Source: Bacilli bacterium
GTDB taxonomy: Bacteria; Bacillota; Bacilli; RF39; UBA660
Length of the DNA stretch: 64,000 nucleotides
Assembly: GCA_017525855.1 (NCBI GenBank)
Contig: JAFXSE010000026.1
Location: 124,001 to 188,000 of the forward strand
Direction: 5' to 3'
The notes beneath the pieces are model-generated. The model searched no databases and was not told the DNA's origin. It saw nothing but the letters and a program-made list of their open reading frames with translations. How positions within the stretch are numbered: the stretch's first letter is position 1; each line of letters opens with the position of its first letter. Positions 3,684-54,547 of this stretch are shown piece after piece. Position numbers and translations under genes: made by a program.

Positions 3684-3689
3684 ATGAGT

Positions 3690-3912
3690 ATCTGCAATGA
3701 ACAAGAGGAGTAAGTTATAACTTATTATAGAGAGCAAATGGTAGATGGAAATTTGTATAAGAAATAACTGAAGGTAGCTTGGGAGCATATTTTTTGAAAT
3801 TAGTAGAAAAATACGTTGTACTGCGTTAAAGTATTAAGATGCATAGTTAACTATGAATTAAGGTGGTACCGTGGACTAAAGTTCATCCTTTGTTGGATGA
3901 GCTTTTTATTTT
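3690..3912 (+). promoter_or_regulatory. T-box riboswitch controlling valS (specifier GUA, valine)
   Basis: The 293-base gap before valS holds a T-box leader. Stem I landmarks: AGAGAG at 3729-3734, a GGTAGATGG-type distal loop just after, then GAAG-GTA-GCTTGGGAG, placing the specifier GTA (Val) at 3774-3776. The T-box core AAGGTGGTACCGTGG is at 3860-3874, with UGGU able to pair with the ACCA end of uncharged tRNA-Val. The competing terminator is 3881-3888 paired with 3895-3902 plus a T tract. Uncharged tRNA-Val should favour antitermination and valS expression. The specifier agrees with the downstream gene; the fold was done by eye. Confidence 0.9.
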
Positions 3913-6682: not shown

Positions 6683-8122
6683 ATGAATGAGTTAGAATTT
6701 AGTGATTTATTAGAAAAAATTAAAGACTATAGCGAAGAAGATATCAAACAAGTTACAAAAGCATATCTTTATGCTAAAAACTTACACGATGGACAATTGA
6801 GACAAAGTGGAGAACCATATATCATTCATCCATTAAATGTTTGTTATACACTCGCTGTAATGCATGCTGATTGTAATACACTTTGTGCTGCACTATTACA
6901 TGATGTATTAGAAGATACACCTGCAACTTATGAAGAAATAGAACAAGAATTTAATACAGATGTTGCAAAATTAGTAGATGGAGTTACAAAAATAAGTAAT
7001 ATAGCATTCTCATCAAAAACAGATAGAAATTATGCTAATATTAGAAAACTAATCAATGGTTTCACAGAAGATGTTAGAATAATTATAATAAAACTATCTG
7101 ATAGACTTCATAATATGAGAACACTACAATTTAAAAGACCAGAAAAACAAAAAGAAATAAGTATTGAAACTATTGAGATTTTTGCGCCACTTGCATATTG
7201 TATTGGAGCTTATAGAATAAAATGTGATCTTGAAGATTTATCTTTAATGTATTTAAAACCAGATGAATATAAAAATATAGTTGATAAAAAACAAACTATA
7301 GAAAATAGAAGTAATAAACTATTAGTTGAAATGTTAAAAAGTATTGAAGAAGCCTTAAATGATAGAAATATACCTAATGAAATAAAAATTAAGACTAAAA
7401 ATGTATATGGTATATATAGACAATTAAATGCAGGACATAAAATATCAGATATTCATGATTTATTAGCTCTTAGAGTAATGGTTGAAAGTATAAATGATTG
7501 TTATCAGACACTTGGGATAATACATTCTAAATATAGACCTTTAAATGATAAGTTTAAAGACTATATATATAATCCAAAAACTAATATGTATCGTTCACTA
7601 CATACTACTGTATTTGGTAAAGAAGATAAATTAGTTCAAGCAAGAATTAGAACTTTTGATATGGACTTAGTAGCTTCATACGGTCTTCCTGCTTATTGGT
7701 ATTTAAATAAAGAATGTGCAAGAGAAAAAATGCAAGAAGATTTGATTAACAAATGGCAAAGTTTTGATGCTTTAGTAGAAATAAATAATGCCTTTTTAGA
7801 TAATCAAGAATTTGTAACAAAAGTAAAACAAGAAGTATTATCTGAAAAAATATATGTATATACTCCAAAAGGTGAAACAATGGAACTACCTAAAGGAGCA
7901 ACAGCAATTGATTTTGCTTATAAAATACATACTGATGTAGGTAATACAATGGTTTCGGCAATAGTAAATGATGAAATAGTACCTATAGATTATGAATTAA
8001 AAAATGGTGATATTGTCAAAATACAAACAGATGAATTAGCATATGGATCTCGTGAAGGATGGTTAGATAAAGCACATACAACTTATGCAAAAAGAAAGAT
8101 AAAAGAGTTTAATAGGAAATAG
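6683..8122 (+). CDS. rel: RelA/SpoT-family (p)ppGpp enzyme, short form without C-terminal regulatory domains
   Basis: 479 residues against about 730 for a full Rel. The N-terminal HD hydrolase looks intact: H49, HD at 73-74, ED at 77-78, and D140/N144 in KLSDRLHNMRTL. A synthetase-like domain follows (about 200-345) and then a TGS domain (about 388-449). The protein stops there, without the helical, zinc-finger and ACT domains. In the synthetase, D259 is kept. The catalytic Glu of the usual EIQIRT motif reads Gln (Q319 in VQARIRT), and the basic RPKH motif is KTKN. I infer a mainly or only hydrolytic enzyme. RBS GGAGG precedes ATG 6683. The next gene follows after 33 bases. Confidence 0.85.
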   Translation: MNELEFSDLLEKIKDYSEEDIKQVTKAYLYAKNLHDGQLRQSGEPYIIHPLNVCYTLAVMHADCNTLCAALLHDVLEDTPATYEEIEQEFNTDVAKLVDGVTKISNIAFSSKTDRNYANIRKLINGFTEDVRIIIIKLSDRLHNMRTLQFKRPEKQKEISIETIEIFAPLAYCIGAYRIKCDLEDLSLMYLKPDEYKNIVDKKQTIENRSNKLLVEMLKSIEEALNDRNIPNEIKIKTKNVYGIYRQLNAGHKISDIHDLLALRVMVESINDCYQTLGIIHSKYRPLNDKFKDYIYNPKTNMYRSLHTTVFGKEDKLVQARIRTFDMDLVASYGLPAYWYLNKECAREKMQEDLINKWQSFDALVEINNAFLDNQEFVTKVKQEVLSEKIYVYTPKGETMELPKGATAIDFAYKIHTDVGNTMVSAIVNDEIVPIDYELKNGDIVKIQTDELAYGSREGWLDKAHTTYAKRKIKEFNRK

Positions 8123-8155
8123 AAAAAATACTAACTTTTATAGGAGATAAAATTA

Positions 8156-8866
8156 ATGATGAATAGTATTTTTTGGGAAATAGTAAATAGCTATAATAAA
8201 AAAGAAATAGCACATGCTTTTTCTATAATATTAAGAGCACATTATGAAAAGATTAAGATGAATGAATTAGGAATTGATAAAAAATTTGAACTAAATCAAA
8301 TGAATAACTTTCAAATTGTTTATGATGATGAAAAGTTTTTTCTAACAACAAATAAAAAAGAAATAATTATTAATAACAGTTTATTTAATAATTTAGTCAC
8401 AAAAATATATCAGTATTTCAAAGATGAATACCCAATTAACTATGATTATAAGTTGATAGATCCCATTTTTTTTTCATTATTCTTTTATGATGTATTAGAT
8501 AAAATAGAAAAAGTTAATTATGATGTTATTAATATATCTGATATTAGATTATTGAGATATAAATCAAAACCAGTTAGTATGGATGAATCAGAAAGATATA
8601 AAGCATTAATAGACGAAAATTATGAAATGTATTCTCCATTTAATTCTAACCTAACAATAGAAACGCCAAAACAAAGATTAAAAAGATCATTAAAAAGTAT
8701 AAAAGAAAAAGGTTATGGTTATAATGATCAGTATGCAATATTTTATAATGATGAACCATATATTAGAGATGGCCAGCATAGAGTGGCAGTTATTAAATAC
8801 TTATATGGTGATATTGATATAAAAATAATTAGAGTATATCTAAAAGATAACTACTTTTATGATTAA
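8156..8866 (+). CDS. ParB/Srx-fold-like protein (first gene of the four-gene cassette)
   Basis: 236 residues. The only recognisable part is the C terminus, where IRDGQHRVAVIKYLYG and a following beta-rich stretch match the DGxHR motif of ParB-nuclease/sulfiredoxin-like domains. The N-terminal 160 residues are unrecognised and rich in aromatic and charged residues. The fold includes nucleotide-using enzymes (ParB CTPase, sulfiredoxin, free-serine kinase), so a phosphotransfer role is possible but unproven. RBS AGGAGA at 8142-8147 supports ATG 8156 over the adjacent second ATG. The stop lies 10 bases before the glycosyltransferase ATG, indicating co-transcription. Confidence 0.55.
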   Translation: MMNSIFWEIVNSYNKKEIAHAFSIILRAHYEKIKMNELGIDKKFELNQMNNFQIVYDDEKFFLTTNKKEIIINNSLFNNLVTKIYQYFKDEYPINYDYKLIDPIFFSLFFYDVLDKIEKVNYDVINISDIRLLRYKSKPVSMDESERYKALIDENYEMYSPFNSNLTIETPKQRLKRSLKSIKEKGYGYNDQYAIFYNDEPYIRDGQHRVAVIKYLYGDIDIKIIRVYLKDNYFYD

Positions 8867-8876
8867 GGAGGTTTAT

Positions 8877-9944
8877 ATGAAAAAAGTGTTAGTTGGTATA
8901 TGCCCAATAGGTAATGGACATATAAATAGACAAATATGTGTAATAAGAGAATTATTGAGCAATAACTTTGAAATCCTAATAGCAACAGATGATAGTAAAA
9001 TACAAATGCTAAAAAATATTTTTCCAAATGAAAAATATATTGCCATAAATATACCATGGATAGTATGCGATGATAATGGATTTAACTTCGCTGATACTTT
9101 AAATAGATATAATAATAATGATTTATTCAAAAAGTTTTTAGAATTTGGTATTGATGTAGAGAAAAAATTAAATGGTAAACCAGATCTAGTAATAACTGAT
9201 TATGAACCTAATGTTGCCCAATATTCATATGCTCAGTCTATTCCGCTTATTACAATGGAACAACAATCAAAATATATGTATATAGATGAAATAGAAATGC
9301 ATAATTATTCTATTAAAGAAGAAATATACCGTTTAAATTATTTTTTTCCTAAATTTAATAAAAAAATTATATCATCTTTTTTTCCATTAGATATTAAAGA
9401 AGAAAATGTCATACAAGTATCCCCAATTATTCCAAAACTGAATAGATATGAAAGGCATGATAGTTTTATACTTGTTTATTTTTCTCCGTATTCTAATTCT
9501 GATAAATATGAAAAGATTATCAATATATTAAAAGAGTTTAAAAATATTAGTTTTAAAGTTTTTTCAAATAATTATGATGATTATGTTAATAAATATAAAT
9601 TTGATAATGTTAGTTTTAATAAATATAATGATGATTTTAAAGAAGATTTAGCAAAATGTTCTGCATTAATTACTACTGGAGGTCATCAATTAATTAGCGA
9701 GGCTATTTCATTAGAAGTTCCATTATATGTTTTACCATTAGAAACTTATGAACAACACTATAATGCTTATATGGTTGAACACTATGGCTTAGGTACTAAT
9801 GAAAAAATATCCGAAGAATCAATAAGAAAGTTTATAGAAAATCGAAATAATTATGTCAATAACATCAAAAAATATAAAAAGAAGTATTATAAAGAACCAT
9901 GGCAGAAAATACTTGTTAAAACTATAGAAAGCATTAATAAATAA
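8877..9944 (+). CDS. GT-B fold glycosyltransferase
   Basis: 355 residues. The N terminus (VLVGICPIGNGHINRQICVIREL) is the first beta-loop-alpha of a GT-B enzyme with the Gly-rich GNGHxxR loop. Near residues 255-300, CSALITTGGHQLISEAISLEVP followed by LPLETYEQHYNAYMVE is the nucleotide-sugar-binding signature of the GT1/GT28-type C-terminal domain. It probably transfers a sugar from a UDP- or dTDP-sugar; the acceptor is unknown and no membrane segment is seen. ATG 8877 has AAGGAGG in front; the frame extends 18 bases upstream without an RBS. It sits second in a four-gene cassette with an ArgRS-like and an S66-like protein, suggesting a modified small molecule, not a polysaccharide. Confidence 0.75.
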   Translation: MKKVLVGICPIGNGHINRQICVIRELLSNNFEILIATDDSKIQMLKNIFPNEKYIAINIPWIVCDDNGFNFADTLNRYNNNDLFKKFLEFGIDVEKKLNGKPDLVITDYEPNVAQYSYAQSIPLITMEQQSKYMYIDEIEMHNYSIKEEIYRLNYFFPKFNKKIISSFFPLDIKEENVIQVSPIIPKLNRYERHDSFILVYFSPYSNSDKYEKIINILKEFKNISFKVFSNNYDDYVNKYKFDNVSFNKYNDDFKEDLAKCSALITTGGHQLISEAISLEVPLYVLPLETYEQHYNAYMVEHYGLGTNEKISEESIRKFIENRNNYVNNIKKYKKKYYKEPWQKILVKTIESINK

Positions 9945-9972
9945 TATATAAATAATTTAAGGAGGATTGTTT

Positions 9973-11322
9973 ATGATTTATACATATTCAAATAATAGAA
10001 CTTTAAAATATAGTACTCCATTAATAGACTATATTAAGAATAATAATTTATATAGTAATGAGAATTTAATGTATACTAGGAAGTATACAGATGGTACATT
10101 TTCTATAACTAATCCTACTAGTAATTATAAAAATAGTGAACTGGTAAATGGATATCCTCATTTTCATATTCCCTTAGAAATAATAATGAATGAGATTGAA
10201 TTTTTTATTAATGAATGCACAATGTATGATAATAATATTCTTATACGATATGGTGATACTCATCCACATAAACCTGTCCCTAAATTAGGACAAATAAGAA
10301 ATTTAGTCATTAATAATTCATTAAGTTCAATGATAGGTTCAAATGCTACTTCATATTTTGTTATAGGTGATATAAGTATTAAATCTTTAAACTATTTTAA
10401 AGAAAAATATGATTTAGATATAGAAGGGGAAAAATTGTTTATAGATATAGTGAATAATAATTTGGATCAAGCAGTTAAAGAGTTATTAGATACTTTTAAT
10501 AAAGATGCTTTGATTCAAATACAGGAATTTCTAAAAAAAGCTAATTTGGATGCTAGTAGATTTTATATAGAAAGTGATTTATATAATAATCAAGAATTAT
10601 ACAAGGAGTTTAAGAATGATCCTAAATATAAAACTGAATTAAAGAAAAATGGAGAATTAAAATATACTTTACAGGAAATGATGTTTATTTGTTCTCATCT
10701 TAAAAACCAAAGAGATTGTTTAATAAATATAATTGGTTCTAACCAATCAGAACATATAAAAAAGGTTAATAATATTCTTTTACAAAGCAATAAAGGTCTA
10801 GATGTTAGATTTTTATCATATGGTATGTGTAATAATGCAGAAAGTAATAATTATGAGCAGTGGTCTTTAAAAATACAAGAATATATATATCATAGACAAA
10901 TAAAGCAATTATCTTCTTACATGAATCATAATGATTTTTTAAAGGCTTTAATGATTATTAATAAAAATGATATGGCATTAGATTTTGATGATTTAGATAA
11001 ACATATTAATGACATTAACAGATTTAATGGATTTATAGACTCAATTTCACTTGCTGATAAAAGCGCCAAAAACGTCCACGATACTAATGATTTATTATGT
11101 AAAATGGCATTAGTATGTTATAATTTGAACAGAGCTATAGAAATGGGAAACCCAAATATGTTTTATAGATATTTACTTTCTGTAGCAAATGAATATGAAT
11201 CACATAAAGATCAATATAAAGATTTAAGCGGTTTATACTATGATTTTATTTGTTCTGGTATGAAAAGACTTGGTTATCCTATTTTTGAACACAAAGAAGG
11301 TAAAAGGATGGTGTTAAAATGA
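9973..11322 (+). CDS. Arginyl-tRNA-synthetase-like protein lacking class I catalytic motifs
   Basis: 449 residues. Three regions resemble ArgRS. Residues 97-120 (KPVPKLGQIRNLVINNSL) align with the KPxHxGHxRN segment, but the HIGH tetrad reads K104-L-G-Q107. Residues 249-264 (CLINIIGSNQSEHIKK) match the GADHxxH region with its His lost. Residues 283-292 (YGMCNNAESN) sit where KMSKS should be, with no lysine motif. The C terminus (about 370-445) looks like a DALR anticodon-binding domain. There is no N-terminal ADD1 domain. It is unlikely to charge tRNA normally; binding an aminoacyl-adenylate or tRNA is possible. ATG 9973 is chosen because AAGGAGGA ends 6 bases before it; a TTG at 9967 abuts the RBS. 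Its end overlaps the next start by 4 bases. Confidence 0.6.
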   Translation: MIYTYSNNRTLKYSTPLIDYIKNNNLYSNENLMYTRKYTDGTFSITNPTSNYKNSELVNGYPHFHIPLEIIMNEIEFFINECTMYDNNILIRYGDTHPHKPVPKLGQIRNLVINNSLSSMIGSNATSYFVIGDISIKSLNYFKEKYDLDIEGEKLFIDIVNNNLDQAVKELLDTFNKDALIQIQEFLKKANLDASRFYIESDLYNNQELYKEFKNDPKYKTELKKNGELKYTLQEMMFICSHLKNQRDCLINIIGSNQSEHIKKVNNILLQSNKGLDVRFLSYGMCNNAESNNYEQWSLKIQEYIYHRQIKQLSSYMNHNDFLKALMIINKNDMALDFDDLDKHINDINRFNGFIDSISLADKSAKNVHDTNDLLCKMALVCYNLNRAIEMGNPNMFYRYLLSVANEYESHKDQYKDLSGLYYDFICSGMKRLGYPIFEHKEGKRMVLK

Positions 11323-12251
11323 TATATCCTAGCAGTATACAAAAAGGTGATAATATAACTCTTATTTCACCGTCTAATGGTTTATATGATAGTAAATTAT
11401 TGGAATTAGACAAATCAATAGAAGTTTTACAAAGATATGGTTATAATATTGTAGAAGATAATTATACACGCAATAGCACTATGGGGTGCAGCTCTGATAG
11501 GATGTCACGTGCTAAAGAATTAAATAAGAGTTTTAATGATAATTCAAAAGTTTTAATTGCAGTCAGTGGTGGAGATTTTATTAATCAGATTATGGATAAG
11601 TTGCAGTTTAGAAGATTCTTAAACAATATAAAATGGATACAGGGTCATTCTGATATTACTGTATTGCTATATTATATAACTACTAATTATGATGTTGCTA
11701 CTATCTATAATTTTAATGTTAGAGGATACTTAAATAATAACAAAAGAGTAGTAGAATATGGTATGAATGCTATTCAAAAAAGACTGTTTTTACAAAAATC
11801 ATTTTCCTCATGGAAAGTAGTTAATAATTTTAAAAAAGTTAATGGTAGAATAATTGGAGGTTGTTTAGAATCATTAAAAGATATATTTGGTACTAAATAT
11901 GATAGCTTTAAAAAGTTTGAAAAAAAATACAAAAAAGACGGTATTATCTGGTATTTTGATATTTCAACTTTTACTAATGAAGATATTTCAAGAACATTGT
12001 GGCAGTTAAATACTATGGGGTATTTTAAATATTGTAAAGCTATTATGTTTAGTAAAATTGAAAATGAGGTAAATTACACGGGGATTAATTTAGAAAAGGC
12101 TATTACTGATGAAATAGGTCATTTAAATATACCAATTATTATTGGTTGTGATATTGGACATATTTCTAGCGTTATTACCATAATTAATGGATCTCTAATT
12201 GAAATAACACAAGATAATAATGAATTTATTATTACAACTAGGTATGATTAG
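11319..12251 (+). CDS. S66 family (LD-carboxypeptidase/MccF-like) protein with missing nucleophile
   Basis: 310 residues, the usual S66 length. Family landmarks: N-terminal GDNITLISPSNG, GHSDITVLL (usually GYSDITAL) at 109-117, GRIIGGCLESLKDIFGT at 176-191, and a C-terminal GH (H281). The nucleophile elbow GGxxS reads G84-G-D-F-I88, so the catalytic Ser is Ile, and the usual Glu in LFLED reads Asp (D214 in WYFDIS). S66 enzymes cleave LD-peptide bonds in muropeptides, or detoxify aminoacyl-adenylate antibiotics (MccF). With this site it may bind and not cleave, or use another chemistry. Translationally coupled to the ArgRS-like gene (ATGA overlap). Confidence 0.65.
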   Translation: MIYPSSIQKGDNITLISPSNGLYDSKLLELDKSIEVLQRYGYNIVEDNYTRNSTMGCSSDRMSRAKELNKSFNDNSKVLIAVSGGDFINQIMDKLQFRRFLNNIKWIQGHSDITVLLYYITTNYDVATIYNFNVRGYLNNNKRVVEYGMNAIQKRLFLQKSFSSWKVVNNFKKVNGRIIGGCLESLKDIFGTKYDSFKKFEKKYKKDGIIWYFDISTFTNEDISRTLWQLNTMGYFKYCKAIMFSKIENEVNYTGINLEKAITDEIGHLNIPIIIGCDIGHISSVITIINGSLIEITQDNNEFIITTRYD

Positions 12252-12266
12252 CCTTTTTACATTAAC

Positions 12267-12296
12267 TTTACATATTAACAAATATATTATTATAAA
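12267..12296 (+). promoter_or_regulatory. Probable promoter of the alpha/beta hydrolase gene
   Basis: TTTACA at 12267-12272, 18-bp spacer, TATAAA at 12291-12296, ahead of the RBS TGGAGGG and ATG 12338. The AT-rich background lowers certainty. Confidence 0.45.
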
Positions 12297-12337
12297 TAAT
12301 AAGTAACAATGATATACTTATTTTTGGAGGGTTACTT

Positions 12338-13279
12338 ATGATTTTAATAATATGTTTGTTATTATTTTTATATTTAATATTTGACGTAGTAGCAAGTAAC
12401 TACTTTATTTCAGTTGCTTTAACTAGAAATAAAAGAAAGATAAAAAAATATAAAAAGAGTTTATTTAAAATATCAGATAAAGTAAAAGAAGAAAAGAATA
12501 AAAATAGAATAGAAATGGTAGAGTGGTTAAGTAAAACTATTTATGAAGAAGAAAAAATAACATCACATGGTCTAAAGCTTTCAGCACTACATTTAATTAA
12601 CAATAGTCATAAATGGGTTATTTTAATACATGGTTATACAGGAGCAAGAGAAGAATTATTACATGTAGGTAAATGGTATTATGAACAAGGTTATAATGTT
12701 TTACTTCCAGATTTAAGAGCTCATGGAGCAAGTGGGGGAAAATATTTTGGAATGGGTTATACTGATAGATTAGATATTTTAAATTGGATAAAACATATTA
12801 CTAATCAAGATAGTGCTGCTAAAATTATTTTACATGGACACTCAATGGGAGCAGCAACAACACTCTTTACTGCAGGAGAAAATCCTAATAACTTAGTAGG
12901 ATGTATTAGTGATTCAGCATATACTAGTGTTTATGAAGTGTTTAGATTACAAATAAAAAAAATATATAATCTATCAGGACATGCGTTATTAAATACAGTT
13001 AATATATTATTTGGTCATAGAAAAGAGGGATACTATCTAAAAAAAGGAAATGTAGTTGAATATACAAAAAGAATAAAAGTGCCAGTACTTTTTATACATG
13101 GTAAAAGAGATGATTTATTACCAGTATCTATGTGTGATGAATTATATAATGCATGTAACTCTAAAAAAGAAAAAGTATTAATTGATAATTGCGGACATGC
13201 TCAAGGAGATTTAGAAGATTACGACTTATATATTAAAATTATAGATAAGTTTTTAAAGGAAAGTGTTGTTGAAAAATAA
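12338..13279 (+). CDS. Membrane-anchored alpha/beta hydrolase
   Basis: 313 residues. Residues 2-25 are an N-terminal hydrophobic anchor, followed by a very basic stretch. The rest is an alpha/beta hydrolase: oxyanion region ILIHGYTGAREE, nucleophile elbow GHSMGAA, acid loop VLFIHGKRDDLLPV and catalytic His in NCGHAQG. The closest broad group is the BAAT/lysophospholipase-type or YqkD-like hydrolases of Firmicutes; the substrate cannot be told. RBS TGGAGGG precedes the ATG. It stands alone between the four-gene cassette and the promoter of the AMP-dependent ligase. Confidence 0.8.
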   Translation: MILIICLLLFLYLIFDVVASNYFISVALTRNKRKIKKYKKSLFKISDKVKEEKNKNRIEMVEWLSKTIYEEEKITSHGLKLSALHLINNSHKWVILIHGYTGAREELLHVGKWYYEQGYNVLLPDLRAHGASGGKYFGMGYTDRLDILNWIKHITNQDSAAKIILHGHSMGAATTLFTAGENPNNLVGCISDSAYTSVYEVFRLQIKKIYNLSGHALLNTVNILFGHRKEGYYLKKGNVVEYTKRIKVPVLFIHGKRDDLLPVSMCDELYNACNSKKEKVLIDNCGHAQGDLEDYDLYIKIIDKFLKESVVEK

Positions 13280-52278: not shown

Positions 52279-52800
52279 ATGGGAAAAAAATTTGGCGACA
52301 TAGTTATTGATACTAAAAATGTTGGTAGATTCTATATTCCAAATTGTAAGCAGTTACATGAGGCTATTCTTGAGTTTCAACAGAATATAAATATTTTTAC
52401 AAATATACATTATTATGTTTATACTGCAGCAAACGGCGATGGTGGCGGTGATTTAGGTGCAAACTTTCTAGTGGATGGTAAAAACTATATGGGTGATAAA
52501 TTAGATGAGTTGACTGAAGAATACTTTAGCAACTATCAGGGAATACTTGATGCTTCATACGATTATATAGATGCGGTTGCAAGAAGCGTTAGAGGAGAAA
52601 TATGCGATGAAAAATTATCTATCATAAATAGCAAAATAAACTCTTTAACTAAAGATTGCACTCATACAAGAACAATTATGACTGGCCCATACAAAAGTTA
52701 TGAAACTTATATAGATTATGGCGATAAAGAAGGCTATTACAATAGCTTAATATCAGATAGAGATTTAATTGAGGCGGCTAAGAATGGAGAGAAAGATTAG
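52279..52800 (+). CDS. Unknown protein of the ESX-like locus
   Basis: 173 residues; no family recognised. A helix-rich middle (residues 25-115) with a Gly/Asp loop AANGDGGGDLGANF, and a C-terminal Cys and Tyr-rich tail (DCTHTRTIMTGPYKSYETYIDYG). No signal peptide or membrane segment. RBS AAAGGAGG is 11 bases before the ATG. It lies 10 bases before the large repeat protein. Probably a substrate or chaperone of the ESX group, by context only. Confidence 0.5.
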   Translation: MGKKFGDIVIDTKNVGRFYIPNCKQLHEAILEFQQNINIFTNIHYYVYTAANGDGGGDLGANFLVDGKNYMGDKLDELTEEYFSNYQGILDASYDYIDAVARSVRGEICDEKLSIINSKINSLTKDCTHTRTIMTGPYKSYETYIDYGDKEGYYNSLISDRDLIEAAKNGEKD

Positions 52801-52810
52801 GTGATGGAAA

Positions 52811-54547
52811 ATGAGTAGTACTATTAATACAGATGGTATGAGAAACTATGCTGAAGTAATAAAAAATTCACTAAAAAGTAGTGATAGAGATTTAACATCC
52901 CTTAATGATGATATGATAGACTTTGCAATGCAATTATCAAGAATGGGGTTTTATAGAAAACTTAATTTAGGGGGTACTATAGTATCTAAGATGAATTCAT
53001 TTCCCAATAAATATAGAAAACTAACAGAAGATTATTTGCTTAATGTTGAGCATTTATGTGATAATATTTATAAAGCTGCTGATAATATAGATAAGGGAAA
53101 AGATGTTGGAGTCGACATATTTGAAGAAGCCGAATATTTTGGTGCTAATCAAACGCCATTATTTGGTAGCGCTTCATCTAATCAAACGCCATTATTTGGT
53201 AGCGCTTCATCTAATTTCGTAATACCATTTACTCCAGATGAATACAAAAAAGGAAATAGATTACAAGGAATTCAAGAAACAGAAGAAGAAAATGAGCCAA
53301 CAAAAGTGCCTAATTCAATGAATATGGATGACATCCTACGTCAAATGGGAATTACTATGCCTTTTCTACAAGGCCCATTAACTTTGTTTTACAATTCATG
53401 GGATGATGTACTTGGTAAAGGTGGTAAAAAAACAACACCTACCAATATAACACCTAATAATGGTAATGGTAATAATACTAATACTAATAATGGTAATAAT
53501 ACTAATACTAATAATGGTAATAATACTAATACTAATAATGGTAATGGTAATAATACTAATAATGGTAATGGTACTAATATTAATACTAATAATGGTAGAC
53601 AAGTTACTAAAGAAGGAACTACTTCGCCAATCGTTAAAACTCCAAATAATAATACAGGAAGTGAACAAACTAAGAGTGGTACTAGCAATAAACTTGAAGA
53701 GAAATTAAAAGAATATGATAAAAAAATCGCAGAACATGATAAGAGAATTAAAAAATTAGAAGATGAAGCTAAAAAAGGTTCACTAGGAACTGGTAGTACA
53801 ACACCTAAAAATCCAGTACCAACAAAAAAACCAGAAGAAAAACAACAAACTATTCCAGATACTAAAAAGCCTACGACTTCTCCTGAAAAGGAAATCGTAT
53901 TAGATGATTTAGATAAAATAGAAGTAATTGATAAAGAAACTACTAATAATTCTAATGCTGCAAAAGATGTTTCAGGAACACCGTCAAACAATACAAACGT
54001 AGAATACACTACTAGAAATTACAATGAACATTCCGAAACAGTAGAGATTCCAAATACAAAAAGTGAAGATGCTGTTAGCAATGATTCCGTAAAGATTGGA
54101 ACATCCGTAACAGAATCAGCACAAGATCTATTAGGAAAGAAAGATAACAAAACAGGAACAACACTTCCTAAATCAAGCAGTAGTAAAACTACAATTAATG
54201 CTAGTAGTAGTAGTAAAAAAGGATTTAATCCCGTACCACTTGCAGTTGGCCTAGGTGCAGCTGTTGCTGGAGGAATTGGAATTAAAGCATATAAAGATCA
54301 TAAAGAAAATAGTAACTTTAATGATGAAAATGAAGATAGTTTTACTAATGGAAATAGATTTTGGACTGATGAAGAACCTAATGTAATCAATTCAGAACAA
54401 AATGATATGAGTGGTGATATTTTATTTGAAGATGAAACACCACAACCTAGCTATGAAGCAGTTGATAATGGCAACAAAGAACTTTGGAAAGTAGAAGAGT
54501 CTATTCCAGAAAATACAGAAACATTTGATTTATTAGGAGAAAATTAG
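52811..54547 (+). CDS. Large Asn/Gly/Thr-rich repeat protein with a membrane segment
   Basis: 578 residues. The N-terminal 100 residues are helical and WXG100-like in style (INTDGMRNYAEVIKNSLKSSDRDLTSLNDDMIDFA). Then come two exact copies of NQTPLFGSASS, a long low-complexity N/G/T region (NGNNTNTN units), a coiled coil (KLEEKLKEYDKKIAEHDKRIKKLEDEA) and Pro/Thr/Ser-rich linkers. A membrane segment (PLAVGLGAAVAGGIGIKAY) near 480-500 precedes an acidic tail. Probably a secreted or surface-exposed component of the ESX group; the repeats are prone to length change. Confidence 0.6.
   Translation: MSSTINTDGMRNYAEVIKNSLKSSDRDLTSLNDDMIDFAMQLSRMGFYRKLNLGGTIVSKMNSFPNKYRKLTEDYLLNVEHLCDNIYKAADNIDKGKDVGVDIFEEAEYFGANQTPLFGSASSNQTPLFGSASSNFVIPFTPDEYKKGNRLQGIQETEEENEPTKVPNSMNMDDILRQMGITMPFLQGPLTLFYNSWDDVLGKGGKKTTPTNITPNNGNGNNTNTNNGNNTNTNNGNNTNTNNGNGNNTNNGNGTNINTNNGRQVTKEGTTSPIVKTPNNNTGSEQTKSGTSNKLEEKLKEYDKKIAEHDKRIKKLEDEAKKGSLGTGSTTPKNPVPTKKPEEKQQTIPDTKKPTTSPEKEIVLDDLDKIEVIDKETTNNSNAAKDVSGTPSNNTNVEYTTRNYNEHSETVEIPNTKSEDAVSNDSVKIGTSVTESAQDLLGKKDNKTGTTLPKSSSSKTTINASSSSKKGFNPVPLAVGLGAAVAGGIGIKAYKDHKENSNFNDENEDSFTNGNRFWTDEEPNVINSEQNDMSGDILFEDETPQPSYEAVDNGNKELWKVEESIPENTETFDLLGEN
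53147..53212 (+). repeat. Two exact tandem copies of a 33-bp unit
   Basis: 53147-53179 and 53180-53212 are identical and encode NQTPLFGSASS twice. Perfect identity suggests recent duplication. Confidence 0.95.
53456..53594 (+). repeat. AAT/GGT/ACT trinucleotide-type low-complexity repeat
   Basis: Units built from AATAATGGT and AATACT encode the N/G/T-rich segment. Frame is preserved whichever number of codons is added or lost, so it can vary in length without frameshift. Confidence 0.9.

Follow-up and report, generated by a model that had tools for sequence, protein, structure and literature searches.

What could four neighbouring genes be doing together when their products resemble a ParB/Srx-fold protein, a glycosyltransferase (GT), an ArgRS and an S66 peptidase? 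The genes lie on the + strand of the stretch of DNA analysed here (the window, 64,000 nucleotides), flanked by a relA-like gene on one side and an alpha/beta hydrolase gene on the other. They encode a ParB/Srx-fold protein of 236 amino acids with an additional N-terminal domain (8156..8866), a GT-B type, MJ1255-like glycosyltransferase (8877..9944), an ArgRS-derived protein of 449 amino acids without HIGH and KMSK (9973..11322) and, 3' of this synthetase-like gene, a serine peptidase of the S66 (LD-carboxypeptidase/MccF) superfamily (11319..12251). We refer to the first two as the core genes and to the third as the putative Arg-type specificity gene.

The original prediction, made from the sequence, gave the spacings as 10 bases, 28 bases and a 4-base overlap and assigned each gene its own ribosome-binding site; the ORF coordinates bear out this spacing, and a purine-rich RBS-like sequence was seen by eye upstream of all four starts. 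It also held that the cassette has no internal terminator or promoter. No terminator-like site was found in 7900-12500 and promoter-like matches in this interval (33) were fewer than in shuffles (mean 47.0, sd 5.9), but one 11-of-12 promoter-like match lies within the GT gene, at 9601-9629.

Families and motifs of the four proteins

The glycosyltransferase was correctly named, as it matched PF13528 at 98.9 bits (cut-off 25); TIGR00661 (MJ1255/VC2487) reached 131.4 bits, below its curated cut-off of 195.9, and matches to murG were weak. The ParB/Srx label applies to the C-terminal half of its protein only, by predicted fold and by an invariant motif. The fold covers residues ~119-236, at Z levels also reached by unrelated proteins in the same list, and each residue of the motif, DGQHR (residues 205-209; 8768..8782, + strand), is kept in 21/21 sequences of alignment A2, which comprises 20 of the 62 ParB-like proteins and the window protein. 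This motif resembles what we take to be the phosphate-loop motif of SerK. Against solved-structure sequences, the ParB-like profile gave nothing or chance-level matches only; in the biosynthetic reading proposed below, the protein is likely a small-molecule kinase.

The S66 protein matched PF02016 (82.9 bits) and PF17676 (73.8 bits), both above cut-off, and its solved relatives are MccF-like. It had been proposed to be MccF-like but nucleophile-less; the family and the relatives are as proposed, but Ser111 (GHSDIT; 11649..11651, + strand) aligns with the nucleophile Ser of GYSDIT in 4e5s/5usd, at the position where 5f1y has Ala, and all four S66 proteins of Arg-type cassettes have Ser at this position. 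The catalytic residues of S66 peptidases are presumably Ser-Glu-His. The His is found in a GH motif in the alignments (His281; 12159..12161, + strand), and the Glu position is most likely Asp in the Arg-type proteins, since a phmmer alignment sets YFD against FFE, making Asp214 (11958..11960, + strand) the probable counterpart; MAFFT places Phe in this column, the register being ambiguous by one residue, and WYFD is found in 4/4 Arg-type proteins. Among PHROGs the S66 protein matched one family of unknown function (48 bits), other matches being at chance level, and none of the five proteins submitted to PADLOC was assigned to a family.

For the ArgRS-like protein, TIGR00456 gave 29.6 bits, and both structure comparison and profile alignment back the assignment: the ArgRS fold is present over the full length, in the catalytic as well as the anticodon domains, and one member of the family shows a weak DALR_1 match. 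Structure and profiles thus keep both the 9973 protein and the 11319 protein in the families first suggested for them. The former had also been called motif-less, rightly so for the canonical motifs. The canonical place of HIGH is taken, in alignment to canonical ArgRS, by PKLGQIR (residues 103-109; 10279..10299, + strand), in which P103, L105, Q107 and R109 are conserved in 32/32 and K104 in 31/32 ArgRS-like sequences (29 of the 120 listed proteins plus those of the window, L002 and L003). HIGH is replaced by KLxQ: its second His, found in 33/33 canonical ArgRS, is Gln in 32/32 members of the ArgRS-like family, while its first His occurs in 28/33 canonical ArgRS (all canonical counts were taken over 33/33 loci without a motif filter). 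The K of the KMSK loop is present in 31/33 canonical ArgRS, and inspection of the 32 ArgRS-like sequences after residue 278, where the profile alignment stops, revealed no conserved counterpart of KMSK.

Parts of the amino-acid pocket may be retained. The Y...D positions, which we take to be the arginine-pocket Tyr and Asp of ArgRS, are Y and D in 33/33 canonical sequences and Y and E in 32/32 sequences of the ArgRS-like family, their counterpart in the window being YTLQE (residues 231-235; 10663..10677, + strand), with Glu for Asp. An Asn conserved in 33/33 canonical ArgRS is His in the family, and so the ligand may be something other than free arginine. As the new motif is kept in 31 or 32 of 32 sequences, the protein does not look like a relic; that the S66 protein is a dead binder was not borne out either, its Ser and His being present. 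Sequence searches of solved structures with the ArgRS-like protein and its profile yielded nothing or chance-level matches only, a broader ArgRS-like alignment recovered the same family again with no bridge to canonical ArgRS among the matches listed (the best 120 of 147), and scoring canonical ArgRS with the family model indicated no single parent. Net charge was considered as a sign of tRNA binding and was uninformative, being near zero in three of the four members looked at.

Recurrence and distribution of the cassette

The four families were found together elsewhere, at loci L001 and L003. When 84,980 species genomes were scanned for patterns, ArgRS-like genes were confirmed in at least three, the number being a lower bound because the scan demands short exact peptides. 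L001 carries all four genes in the order of the window and, close by, genes related to the kinase and acyl-CoA genes found there; L003 has the order ParB-like, ArgRS-like, S66, GT and flanks that differ from the window's; L002 retains the ArgRS-like and S66 genes and a GT without its N-terminal part, and a ParB-like search of the L002 genome came up empty. The S66 gene lies directly 3' of the synthetase-like gene in 5/5 readable loci, and a separate canonical ArgRS is encoded in 3/3 Arg-type genomes examined. In a protein collection holding 147 ArgRS-like and 62 ParB-like clusters, the 120 listed ArgRS-like and the 62 ParB-like clusters had five same-sized contigs in common, one of them L001, against 0.2 expected under a crude model.

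The distribution is very sparse, the cassette having turned up in only a handful of bacteria, all uncultured. The ArgRS-like model matched in 2/288, 1/291 and 3/288 genomes of sampled groups (the sets overlap), one of these matches (G142) being a C-terminal fragment only, and within the same order and family almost none of the genomes sampled carries the cassette. No viral contig with an ArgRS-like or ParB-like gene was confirmed and no plasmid with either was found. At 30 relA loci with 1.5-kb flanks no empty site was demonstrable; a few of these flanks contained genes distantly related to the kinase, acyl-CoA or ValRS genes of the window, and none contained the hydrolase.

Several observations on these loci were made in passing. 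The fragment in G142 (L083:138-332) is a C-terminal ArgRS-like remnant near a contig end, beside what by eye is a dnaE-like gene. Directly 3' of the cassette in L001 lies a serine-recombinase-like gene, also recognised by eye (L001:12594-14249). Upstream (5') of the decayed cassette in L002, a stop-broken gene for a P-loop protein is accompanied by a short SPASM-like radical SAM tail (L002:300-1603); the broken gene has weak P-loop matches only in Pfam and NCBIfam and is HprK-like by eye, the SPASM match is below cut-off, and these genes are perhaps remnants of a larger metabolite cluster.

The Glu-type variant and exchange of the synthetase-like/S66 pair

Searching 288 genomes for ParB-like proteins turned up five matches, namely G001, G003, G068 and two judged false (weak matches in G009 and G015, rejected as GT2 glycosyltransferases by eye); among 291 genomes of G068's family, the ParB-like matches were G068 and the same two false ones only. 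G068 had no match to the ArgRS-like model. Its operon (L082:8867-12789, - strand) instead begins with a GluRS-like gene (12789-11479; TIGR00464), followed by an S66 gene in place of the Arg-type one (11479-10646), a ParB-like gene (10649-9954) and a GT gene (9973-8867), the products of the last two each being 62% identical to those of the window, and all four genes overlap.

The GluRS-like protein matched TIGR00464 (gltX) at 86.9 bits, below cut-off, and also solved GluRS, and hhalign gave a probability of 98.6 against nine canonical GluRS of the order. Compared with these nine, chosen without a motif filter, it has RITC at HVGN and NEFNV at KLSKR and keeps the pocket stretches YNF and IRG, and the genome encodes a second GluRS with HIGN and KISKR. 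No second copy of the GluRS-like gene was found among 183 genomes; the other matches listed were <=32% identical and, by size and position, we read them as canonical GluRS.

The S66 protein of this operon has Ser, Glu and His all present. It shares 21-25% identity with its Arg-type counterparts and 31-36% with two canonical S66 proteins, and because it is closer to the latter, the pairing of a synthetase-like with an S66 gene probably arose twice. In a ParB-like tree, G068 grouped with the Arg-type L001 (98/90), leaving the Arg-type window and L003 outside (midpoint root; most rows are of unknown type, 5 of the 62 proteins were excluded as <190 residues, and the tree leaves the direction of the Arg/Glu swap unfixed). 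Read together with the content of the G068 operon, this tree indicates that the synthetase-like/S66 pair has been exchanged on a constant ParB-like/GT core. The earlier link of the cassette to aminoacyl or glycosyl compounds is strengthened by this GluRS-type variant.

Proposed function and its alternatives

We tentatively read the four genes as a biosynthetic cassette that would attach an amino acid of choice to a small molecule bearing a sugar (or a phosphate), a reading that we consider quite possible. The constant core, consisting of the glycosyltransferase and the putatively nucleotide-binding ParB/Srx-fold protein, would make or activate the acceptor, for which the GT suggests a sugar by analogy with mycothiol, and the swappable module, an aaRS-derived protein with an S66 serine amidase, would determine the amino acid. 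Two synthetase families without their ATP motifs but with pocket stretches kept, ArgRS-derived in the window and GluRS-derived in G068, fill the same operon slot, which argues for a role in choosing the amino acid. Since HIGH and KMSK are absent, adenylation is not expected; the aaRS-like protein would make no adenylate and would most likely accept a pre-activated amino acid, coming either from charged tRNA, as in cyclodipeptide synthases, or from the ParB/Srx-like partner by way of phosphoryl activation. Cleavage of the aminoacyl amide so formed would fall to the S66 protein, in the manner of MccF and serving either maturation or self-protection. What the comparisons support directly are the families, the loss and gain of motifs, the co-occurrence, the gene order and the exchange, on a single core, of the aaRS-like/S66 pair; from these we infer all of the chemistry, namely the binding of amino acid and tRNA, the transfer, the kinase activity and the product.

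Points against this biosynthetic reading are that the ORF lists, viewed by eye, contain no transporter, carrier protein, precursor peptide or regulator common to the loci, that the Glu-type comes from a single genome, and that the cassette is so sparsely distributed; L002 with its shortened GT and no ParB-like match, the His at the ArgRS Asn and the weak ParB/Srx Z levels also count against it. A fuller scenario, in which ArgRS and GluRS were separately stripped of their ATP chemistry to become tRNA-dependent or kinase-fed aminoacyl transferases, each re-paired with an S66 amidase on one shared GT/ParB-fold core, such that a module swap would change the amino acid of the product, is possible but unlikely to hold in full.

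Other functions would draw on the same families. Were the cassette for resistance only, with the GT, the ParB/Srx-like kinase and the S66 amidase inactivating an aminoacyl-nucleoside inhibitor and the aaRS-like protein serving as decoy, its sporadic distribution would fit, and glycosylation and phosphorylation are common inactivation routes; however, we know of no ArgRS or GluRS inhibitor that would explain both module types. MccF, an L,D-carboxypeptidase, does cleave aminoacyl-nucleotide amides (PMC9239234), yet a decoy for an adenylate-like inhibitor should retain the nucleotide site and exactly that part is lost, and we regard this explanation as unlikely. Doubtful to a greater degree is a role in the cell envelope, where S66 would trim muropeptides and a MurG-like GT would glycosylate a wall or lipid precursor, to which an amino acid would be supplied by the aaRS-like protein. 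The S66 family includes murein tetrapeptide carboxypeptidases, both S66 types match NCBIfam PRK11253 best (61.9 and 63.1 bits, far below the cut-off of 378), and the weak murG matches and the wall-synthesis-like genes seen by eye in the window point the same way, but G001 and G002 (not G003) have a second, separate S66 gene, and almost every genome sampled from this order and family does without the cassette.

About as doubtful, and perhaps marginally more so, is a non-enzymatic role for the aaRS-like proteins, as regulators that bind tRNA or an amino acid and recruit or control the other enzymes. This would accord with the full-length fold, anticodon side included, with the weak DALR_1 match and with DALRD3, an ArgRS relative without a synthetase motif that recruits METTL2 to tRNA-Arg (PMC7237682); against it, the strictly conserved new motif sits at the HIGH place of the catalytic domain, and the constant S66 partner would be left unexplained. 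That the four genes are unrelated neighbours, a grouping by chance that the window by itself could not exclude, is hardly credible given that they recur, in L001, L003 and L082 and partly in L002, in a changed order and with overlaps between genes.

The biosynthetic reading has precedents in cyclodipeptide synthases and MshC. Cyclodipeptide synthases have a class-I aaRS catalytic fold in which, as here, HIGH has disappeared and a new conserved signature has arisen, and they work from charged tRNA, but they are near TyrRS/TrpRS, whereas the cassette proteins descend from ArgRS, over the whole length in the Arg-type, and GluRS (PMC2922099); they also differ in that the aaRS-like genes described here sit with GT, ParB/Srx-like and S66 genes. 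MshC, a CysRS-like enzyme that joins Cys to GlcN-Ins in the mycothiol pathway, retains HIGH and KMSKS and uses ATP, unlike the cassette proteins, which are without both motifs (PMC9736012). DALRD3 shares the DALR domain, the kinship with ArgRS and the lack of a recognisable catalytic motif, but is a vertebrate tRNA-methylation partner, whereas the ArgRS-like family has its invariant motif at the HIGH place (PMC7237682). SerK, SbnI and sulfiredoxin, nucleotide users with the ParB-CTPase fold, are predicted to share that fold with the C-terminal half of the ParB/Srx-like protein (PMC12704722), which differs in its N-terminal domain and has no sequence-level match to them. Microcin C and agrocin-type systems likewise combine an MccF-type peptidase with a synthetase paralogue, but the four cassette genes include no MccB-type enzyme or precursor. 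In agrocin 84 the synthetase paralogue reportedly gives immunity, whereas the cassette paralogue, its ATP motifs being absent, probably does not function as a resistant enzyme.

Synthetase relatives are already known to have been recruited for making metabolites, and the parts of the cassette are of known kinds. Searches of open-licence literature (most subscription papers lie outside this scope) yielded no description of the four-gene set, nor of two synthetase families losing their ATP motifs and filling one slot, and the exchange of such relatives on one operon core is apparently undescribed. The Arg- and Glu-type variants suggest an undescribed way to put chosen amino acids onto a small molecule. 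If the swap reading is true, the amino acid could be predicted from the module, the product and chemistry would be directly testable, and further module types may be present in uncultured relatives.

As to its surroundings, the window looks chromosomal, given its wall, tRNA and tRNA-synthetase genes (by eye), the three tRNA genes it contains and a T-box leader, which lies at 3688-3893, 5' of valS. In L082, too, a valS (69% identical to this one) is located within a few kb of the Glu-type cassette, a hint that the two regions share a neighbourhood. Farther along the window, at 52279-54547, a small gene is followed by one whose product has a long Asn/Gly/Thr repeat stretch and, by eye, a possible membrane anchor.
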